Assembly (NCBI RefSeq): GCF_009617575.1
Contig: NZ_WIXJ01000004.1
Span: forward strand, 62,001-126,000
Length of the DNA stretch: 64,000 nt
Reading direction: 5' to 3'
Source: Rhodocyclus gracilis
GTDB lineage: Bacteria > Pseudomonadota > Gammaproteobacteria > Burkholderiales > Rhodocyclaceae
Shown one piece after another: positions 49,835 through 51,738 of the stretch; positions within the stretch are counted from its first letter, which is position 1; each line of letters opens with the position of its first letter. The notes beneath the pieces are model-generated. The model was not told where the DNA came from, searched no databases, and saw nothing but the letters and a program-made list of their open reading frames with translations. Both the position numbers and the translations under genes were made by a program.

Positions 49835-49982
49835 GCGGCGGCTCAAATCGGCCATCCTGGCCGATGGAACGGCACTTTGGGATTGGCGGCTTTCGACCCA
49901 ATGCAGAAGCAGGCGGCTTGGAGAAGCGGACGTTCAACGTTTGAAGCGAGGGGCCGCCGCAGCGGCGACGCCGCGAAAGGAA

Positions 49983-50040
49983 CCCACAAGCGTAGTTTGT
50001 GGGCGATCCCTCGCGACGGGATAGTTAGATATCAACTATC
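49983..50040. repeat. Pair of hairpins at the dctD / TIR-gene boundary
   Basis: Two perfect 7-bp inverted repeats: CCCACAA...TTGTGGG (49983-50003) and GATAGTT...AACTATC (50020-50040). The second overlaps the TIR-gene stop codon. On the minus strand the outer one is followed by TTCCTTTC, so it may end the TIR transcript. They mark the switch from GC-rich to AT-rich sequence. Confidence 0.45.
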
Positions 50041-51136
50041 GGAACTCGTTAAAGGTTTTAAGTAGCTTCATTGTCGCAGCGTAGTCAAGTTGATCGCCCT
50101 CGTACTCGCAACGATAAAGCCCTTGCAAATTGGATGGTAGTTTTACGCCCGTCTCAACTAGAAGGATAAATCTCTTTCTGTAAAGAGCAATAGCCGCACC
50201 GATTTCAATCAGTACGTTCTCGTTAAGGCGAGTATGAGTGTTTCCATCGGCATCGAGAAACTCCCCTTCTTTGTCGACATGAATTACCGCCGCATAACAA
50301 AGCCGCATGTCTTCAAATACTTTTTCTGGGACGGGTATTGACGCAGCATCTTTCTCAACAGAAACAATTGGCGTGAACTTCCCGAAGGTAAGAAGCTCCT
50401 TTAATTGGTCAACTATTTTTCTGTTTTTTCCATGACTGATGAAGACATTAGTGTTTTTCTCTTCTAGGGCCGCCTGGGTTTTTGTCTCGACCACTCCAGA
50501 AACTTTCTTTGCGAATTCTTCAAGCTCGAATGCATCAGGTTGCACGGAGGGTACGTCTTCTTCGTCGGACGAAGATTCTTTTGTTTGGACGTGTGGCGAG
50601 GGTGACCCAAGCGCAACGAATAGACCGGTCTTCGTGTCTCTGAGTACACCAGAAAATAATCCATTCTCCCGAACCAAACCAACCGCCTCTGCAGCCCTTT
50701 CTTTTGGAACACCAAGCGACACGAGTACGTTTTCAGCAATATTTTCCTTCGGAAACTTTGCCTTATCGTACTTCTTATAGAACTCCCCCATTACTCTTGG
50801 TTTTAGAATCGCCTGTACCTTAGCTGCAATATCTTCACCTTCGGAAGTTGGTGCAACAATGGCTCGCCCGAGAGCAGTAAGTTCAATGGTATTCGCGTTA
50901 TACCCCCCCTCTGTTAGCCCGTATGCAATGGAAGTCCCACAGAGATTCCTCCAGTGCCCGCTTGTAGGGCTTAAGTCAAGAGCTAAAGCAACATCGTGAG
51001 GCGCTGCTCCTTTGCCTGCGAAGTTCTCCCAGATTGCTTCGGCAATTGATAATGCCTTGGCGAGACTCTCTCTTGGTATTTCCGTTTGACTGACCTTTAT
51101 TCTTTTCTCAACCGAGACTTGAGGCTTCGCAATCAC
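50036..51136 (-). CDS. Winged-helix-like plus TIR-like (CAP12/PycTIR-type) protein
   Basis: 366 residues from a GTG with AAGGAG 7 nt upstream. N-terminal helical part (about 20-175) resembles a winged-helix/DUF5343-like fold (GLTEGGYNANTIELTALGRA, KFPKENIAENVLVSLGVP), then an acidic linker (about 185-210). The C-terminal TIR-like domain (229-366) has NVFISHGKNRKIVDQLKELL, a NENVLIEIGAAIALY helix with a candidate catalytic Glu (E311), and KLPSNLQGLYR, matching the predicted nucleotide-binding TIR family (PF10137). Base composition is much more AT-rich than the neighbours, suggesting transfer. NAD cleavage is a family inference. No partner gene or CRISPR lies nearby. Confidence 0.75.
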   Translation of the reverse strand: MIAKPQVSVEKRIKVSQTEIPRESLAKALSIAEAIWENFAGKGAAPHDVALALDLSPTSGHWRNLCGTSIAYGLTEGGYNANTIELTALGRAIVAPTSEGEDIAAKVQAILKPRVMGEFYKKYDKAKFPKENIAENVLVSLGVPKERAAEAVGLVRENGLFSGVLRDTKTGLFVALGSPSPHVQTKESSSDEEDVPSVQPDAFELEEFAKKVSGVVETKTQAALEEKNTNVFISHGKNRKIVDQLKELLTFGKFTPIVSVEKDAASIPVPEKVFEDMRLCYAAVIHVDKEGEFLDADGNTHTRLNENVLIEIGAAIALYRKRFILLVETGVKLPSNLQGLYRCEYEGDQLDYAATMKLLKTFNEFR

Positions 51137-51482
51137 GGAATTCTCCTTGGATATCGAACAGTGTTTTGACAGACACTCGGGTACGCATACAAAAATGATG
51201 CTGATGACGCTAAAGATGAGGCTTTAACTTCATACCATTCACTCATCTGGAGTTCGTGCTATCAGGATAAAAACTACAATATGCCAGACAGCTCCCATGT
51301 TCGTGCGAGAAATATTATGATGAGCGACTGCTTTCAGGGGGCGTGACCGACAGGCCGCTTCTAGCCGGCACCGGTCATTCTAGCCTGCTGGCATCACTAG
51401 CCGCAAAGGCCGGACACGAGCCAATCACCTCACTTCAGCAAGGCTTCCTTCCCCGTCCGAGTAGCCCCATTCAAACCCCGCC
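51137..51482. other. AT-rich gap upstream of the TIR gene
   Basis: About 345 bp with no supported gene. The first 200 bp share the AT-rich character of the TIR gene and presumably hold its leftward promoter, although no strong hexamer pair is visible. The composition returns to GC-rich around 51340. Flanking direct repeats or an integrase gene were not seen. Confidence 0.5.
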
Positions 51483-51644
51483 TCAACGACAGCACATACA
51501 CAAACAAATACCAGACCGCAAACACCCTTTCTGTGGCGCCGTATGCCAAGGCGGAGTCCGATACAACGACACAAGCGCCGCCTTCTTTTTCTGCCTCGGG
51601 CAATCCTTGCACGGCGGATTGCGTTTGCAGCATTTCTTCGCCAT
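51483..51644 (-). CDS. Small Cys-rich basic protein
   Basis: 53 residues from the ATG at 51644, with GGGGAAAGAGAG just upstream. The N-terminus MAKKCCKRNPPCKDCPRQKK has four Cys in a compact basic stretch. A Cys-rich end (CLRSGICLCMCCR) follows. Compact Cys/Lys motifs like this recur in small proteobacterial proteins of unknown role, probably metal or nucleic-acid binding. It lies 16 bp past the katA terminator on the same strand. The C-terminal half may be less constrained; I cannot judge conservation. Confidence 0.5.
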   Translation of the reverse strand: MAKKCCKRNPPCKDCPRQKKKAALVSLYRTPPWHTAPQKGCLRSGICLCMCCR

Positions 51645-51660
51645 CTCTCTTTCCCCGCTG

Positions 51661-51688
51661 AAAAAAGGCCCGGGTCGCCCCGGGCCTT
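51661..51688 (-). terminator. Intrinsic terminator after katA
   Basis: On the minus strand AAGGCCCGGG and CCCGGGCCTT form a perfect 10-bp stem with a 4-nt GCGA loop, followed by a T-run (the complement of 51661-51666). It lies 50 bp after the katA stop and just before the small Cys-rich gene. Confidence 0.9.
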
Positions 51689-51738
51689 GATTCGCAAGCA
51701 AGCGTAGCCACCAGGCTCGCTTACACCGCCTGCCTCGC

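Follow-up and report, generated by a model that had tools for sequence, protein, structure and literature searches.

The gene at positions 50036 to 51136 (minus strand) of the window, i.e. the whole 64,000-nucleotide stretch of Rhodocyclus gracilis DNA analysed here, encodes a protein of 366 amino acids with a basic N-terminal tail, a two-lobed winged-helix module, an acidic linker and a TIR domain. Our analysis suggests that it could be a mobile single-gene sensor-effector, in which a nucleic-acid-triggered winged-helix half drives an NAD(+)-hydrolysing, anti-virus TIR; we give this full reading about even credence. The protein most likely works like the known TIR effectors. Since close relatives turn up here and there in bacteria, archaea and their viruses, we see in it a probable anti-virus alarm made by one gene. 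Computation gives the two-domain anatomy, the ancestry and the mobility, whereas the enzyme activity, the clustering, the DNA trigger and the defence role are our proposals. In the mechanism we propose, the winged-helix half (residues 20-178) and the lysine/arginine tail would recognise a trigger of foreign origin, most probably a nucleic acid, and the binding would cluster the protein. The clustered C-terminal TIRs would then pack together and thereby complete their active site, in which NAD(+) or a related nucleotide would be hydrolysed, and the infected cell would be arrested or killed.

The AT-rich island and its neighbours

The gene starts with GTG in the open reading frame listing, and a Shine-Dalgarno sequence, AAGGAG, can be read directly at 51143 to 51148 (minus strand), 6 nt 5' of this codon. 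The AT-rich island with a single gene, as originally predicted, is clearly seen in our data. The G+C content of 50036-51136 is 0.465 (46.5%), about 5 standard deviations under the window mean, while the 1207 equal-sized stretches outside the gene have a mean of 0.641 with standard deviation 0.034 and a minimum of 0.548, so that all of them hold at least 54.8% and none (0/1207) is as low as the TIR gene. The low-G+C tract runs from about 50001 to 51300 and takes in about 200 bp 5' of the gene at 43%. This upstream DNA (51137 to 51340, minus strand) belongs by its composition to the same island and presumably contains the promoter; we found no match to a sigma-70 promoter in the DNA upstream of the gene, and no convincing flanking repeats or target duplication around the window copy. 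Further upstream, a hairpin at 51660-51693 (GAAAAAAGGCCCGGG / CCCGGGCCTTGATTC), with a T-run on the minus strand, is likely the catalase terminator. A small Cys/Lys-rich open reading frame at 51486-51644 (minus strand), 3' of the catalase gene and starting with MAKKCCKRNPPCKDCPRQKKKAAL, is a putative gene with no match in Pfam or PADLOC.

The neighbours in the window are a dicarboxylate symporter, a TauE/SafE protein, a DctB/DctD-like two-component pair, a catalase and two chemotaxis receptors (MCPs). These identities agree with the prediction that the TIR gene has neither a cyclase nor an Argonaute nor any other defence gene next to it; the PADLOC matches on the DctD-like regulator were read as non-specific matches to its sigma-54 activator region. 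The whole genome encodes no other PF10137 protein and no SMODS cyclase, the control genomes being positive in the same cyclase search. No recurrent partner was found within 6 kb of 17 homologues, where the sole similar neighbour pair consists of peptidase-like genes, not adjacent to the homologue, at two loci (L005 and L013). With no linked partner, no second PF10137 protein and no SMODS cyclase, the gene would act alone or with host-encoded factors. A check for clustering of the homologues in defence islands had been proposed, and its outcome speaks in part against a defence role: most of them lie outside recognisable islands, the PADLOC matches among 84 neighbours are few, several of these being probably housekeeping genes, and clear defence genes are found near only a few homologues, e.g. 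a methyltransferase at L014.

The N-terminal winged-helix module

The N-terminal half was predicted to be winged-helix-like, and the model of this half alone confirms and extends this: AlphaFold2 gives a tandem, two-lobed winged-helix module at residues 20-178 (50603 to 51079, minus strand) with pLDDT 94. No Pfam family matches the module, even at E up to 10. A conserved stretch at residues 57-74 would be the recognition helix. When the two halves were searched separately, as had been proposed, the N-terminal one came out as a winged helix with moderate similarity to FokI and BrxA and the C-terminal one as an SfSTING-like TIR. Using VIA-align, the module is matched over its whole length by the recognition part of FokI (Z 8.0, 162 aligned, rmsd 4.4), Nt.BspD6I (Z 7.8) and BrxA 3bhw (Z 7.8, 139 residues). 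Such Z values of about 8 are moderate, and a common arrangement could account for them. The protein may share with FokI and BrxA (DUF1819) the two-lobed winged-helix arrangement across the whole module but differs from them in its effector, and homology to BrxA is undetectable in the sequence and was rejected (comparison with two BrxA sequences gave an hhalign probability of 0.3%). DUF5343 as the family of the module was also dropped, with no DUF5343 match in Pfam at E up to 10. BrxA of the BREX system is reported to have a two-HTH DNA-binding arrangement like that of FokI, and its DNA binding was tested by EMSA (PMC9240713).

The module could instead be a protein-binding or dimerisation unit, which would sense a phage protein or keep the TIRs apart until triggered, with the same NAD-depleting TIR. 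We consider this unlikely, though not far-fetched. It would fit the Foldseek search, in which the top matches are the winged helices used for dimerisation by O-methyltransferases, which do not bind DNA, and it would fit lobe 1, which is acidic rather than basic (pI 5.1). Three observations point the other way, namely that the whole-module matches in VIA-align are the DNA readers FokI, Nt.BspD6I and BrxA, that the methyltransferase matches there span at most about 86 residues, and that basic N-terminal tails occur in many family members, e.g. L006 and L010. In the window protein, the disordered tail N-terminal to the module contains lysine and arginine.

A sensor role of this half is consistent with the way the module evolves. 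Purifying selection acts on the module and on the TIR alike (pN 0.07-0.18, pS saturated), whereas the acidic, low-confidence linker between them (residues 179-227, 50456 to 50602, minus strand; pI 4.4) is unconstrained, with a nonsynonymous divergence pN of about 0.48. Measured against the window copy, the TIR changes at about half the rate of the module, which one would expect if the former is an enzyme and the latter its sensor.

Searched for with a profile, the module also turns up in proteins that have no TIR and end in other C-termini. Two of them (L020 and L025) have a C-terminus weakly like nucleoside 2-deoxyribosyltransferases, under the Pfam cutoff, and one genome (G082) has a protein of this kind as well as a TIR-bearing one. 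The L020 homologue lies near GajA-like ATPase and methyltransferase-like genes. Seven further proteins (L022, L051 and L056-L060) join the module to other or short C-termini, a KGPxGPxE-like motif being common to several of them, and in two more (L027 and L050) it is followed by yet another tail. The proteins of L051 and L056-L060 have about 240-355 amino acids, with a short C-terminal stretch after the module and in some a KGPxGPxEIxxLIKLLE-like motif. Our data thus support the module as a separate, conserved and exchangeable unit of sensor-like character. The stand-alone sensor-effector of the original prediction gains from this and from the lack of linked neighbours at the 17 loci, while its effector side is weakened by the family-wide replacement of two SfSTING active-site positions, described below.

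The TIR domain and its active site

The TIR domain at residues 228-366 (50039 to 50455, minus strand) was assigned to the CAP12/Pycsar family PF10137 by Pfam. It is the sole domain that Pfam finds in the protein, with E=5.7e-17 and 62.3 bits at residues 230-346 against a curated cutoff of 24.7. The model of the full protein, built by AlphaFold2 on a 15-sequence alignment, has two confident domains with the low-confidence linker between them. The top structural match of the modelled TIR half is the TIR of SfSTING, 7un8 (Z 13.9, rmsd 2.5, 121 aligned), followed by nucleotide N-hydrolases (DNPH1, MilB) and the TIRs of SPARTA (TIR-APAZ) and SARM1. Ahead of its catalytic helix the model has two paired strands, which resemble the CC-loop insertion of SfSTING. 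Both the TIR-like domain and its kinship to the CAP12/Pycsar TIRs were hence called correctly from the sequence.

We mapped the active site by HMM alignment to SfSTING, whose numbering was counted from E84 along the printed sequence, with E95 landing on a Glu as control. The predicted catalytic residue E311 (50204 to 50206, minus strand) aligns with E84 of SfSTING, and N307 with its N80; neither residue varies among the 19 full-length members, and further TIR positions are invariant too. The positions of SfSTING R78 and D110 are occupied by N305 (50222 to 50224, minus strand) and N336 (50129 to 50131, minus strand), each Asn in 19/19. In SfSTING, D110 is supplied by the dimer mate, and the D110A substitution abolishes the NADase activity (PMC9402430). 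NADase activity of the TIR is plausible from its sequence, and we can only infer it because both of these positions are Asn in all 19 members; with D110A abolishing the activity in SfSTING, the family-wide replacement means that the activity or the substrate may differ.

Since two substrate-contacting charged positions are Asn throughout the family, the TIR might not be an NAD hydrolase at all; it might use another nucleotide, synthesise a signal or only bind nucleotides. The closeness of the fold to the N-hydrolases DNPH1 and MilB would suit such a role, as would the two proteins that carry the same module and end in weakly deoxyribosyltransferase-like C-termini instead. We find it improbable all the same, as the family shows no variation at the catalytic Glu, at N307 (which corresponds to N80) and at further positions, and no signal receptor is encoded nearby.

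Spread of the family and relation to known systems

The NAD(+)-hydrolysing sensor-effector that we propose would be a mobile one. The 19 full-length members, including the window copy, come from eight phyla, one of them archaeal, and from virus contigs; the relatives are 37-75% identical to the window protein and several are from metagenome bins. Their hosts are Deferrisomatales, Halomonas, Stenotrophomonas, Lysobacter, Rhodanobacter and Ideonella, with further copies from Nitrospirae, Acidobacteria, Woesebacteria, Verrucomicrobia, Chloroflexi and Thaumarchaeota. The closest relatives are those of Deferrisomatales (75%) and Halomonas (71%), which form one clade with the window copy in the tree (98/98), and the copies from the same order or family (G082, G571 and G497) form another (100/99). 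TIR-bearing copies were found in 4/200 relatives, and a search of two genomes of the same genus gave none. Synteny with the sister genome G002 reaches the end of the DctD-like gene (49839) and then stops, which places the end of the shared sequence, a variable site, at 49840, just past the stop codon of that gene. As its nearest copies are those of Deferrisomatales and Halomonas, and not those from its own family or order, the gene spreads by horizontal transfer; descent as a vertical core gene, under which the idea of a defence gene was to be given up, is rejected on the strength of this clade and of the sparse occurrence among the relatives.

Homologues are also carried by IMG/VR virus contigs, one with genes for terminase and portal at a distance of a few kb from the homologue (L028) and one with phage-type SSB and Sak4-like recombination genes (L017). 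On these two contigs and on a third (L029) the homologue lies about 0.5-3.5 kb from the contig end. A tblastn search of plasmid and phage collections with the TIR protein gave no match. The Tardiphaga copy at L015:1421-2592 is split across two overlapping frames and is a broken or mis-assembled gene. That the gene is a virus- or transposon-borne accessory, mainly for superinfection exclusion or element control, with the chromosomal copies as remnants, is very unlikely: three virus contigs do carry a copy close to an end and one locus is near a TniQ-type transposon gene set, but the copies on chromosomes are intact genes kept by purifying selection, most copies lie outside recognisable elements, and the window copy is not bounded by repeats.

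The proposed anti-virus sensor-effector resembles several known systems in part. It has in common with SfSTING, the TIR-STING or Cap12 effector of CBASS, the PF10137 TIR and the catalytic Glu besides being closest to it in structure, but it has a winged-helix module in place of the STING domain, its TIR is C-terminal and there is no cyclase. No CD-NTase gene adjoins it, and the effector has no STING or SAVED domain in Pfam or in the model, unlike in CBASS. The PycTIR of Pycsar has the same kind of C-terminal TIR and is the best single-sequence match in the PDB (8jsj, E 0.016), a profile of the whole protein having no match among the PDB sequences; here there is no adjacent PycC cyclase and the N-terminal half is without a Pfam sensor domain. 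SPARTA couples a TIR (Z about 12) to nucleic-acid sensing by an analogous logic, while our protein is encoded by one gene with no Argonaute and no APAZ. With these partner genes absent, the protein belongs to none of CBASS, Pycsar and SPARTA. The best PADLOC match is PDC-S35, by its name presumably a candidate system, and is confined to the TIR part (E 6e-13); it runs over about positions 60-250 of the profile and residues 197-362 of the protein, leaving the module outside. The amoeba TirBCD proteins, of which TirC is an NADase (PMC13142454), likewise have a stand-alone C-terminal TIR of CAP12/Pycsar type and no operon partners, but they are eukaryotic and their N-termini differ. Our literature search, made largely among openly accessible papers, turned up no account of a single-gene family that joins a winged helix to a TIR.

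Prokaryotic TIR effectors known so far mostly rely on a partner, such as a cyclase or an Argonaute, or on a large sensor. We speculate, tentatively and against the more probable outcome, that the N-terminal module is an undescribed, exchangeable nucleic-acid sensor placed on varied nucleotide-destroying effectors (the TIR, and the deoxyribosyltransferase-like C-termini of L020 and L025), which would make a one-gene, DNA-triggered immune class in bacteria, archaea and viruses with a TIR site unlike that of TIR-STING. As the module has no catalogue entry and occurs with several C-termini, it offers a handle to find more such proteins. If the protein works as proposed, its 366 residues of sensor plus enzyme, encoded by one gene that can pass from one domain of life to another, would amount to a minimal immune receptor and provide a simple system in which to ask what switches a TIR on.
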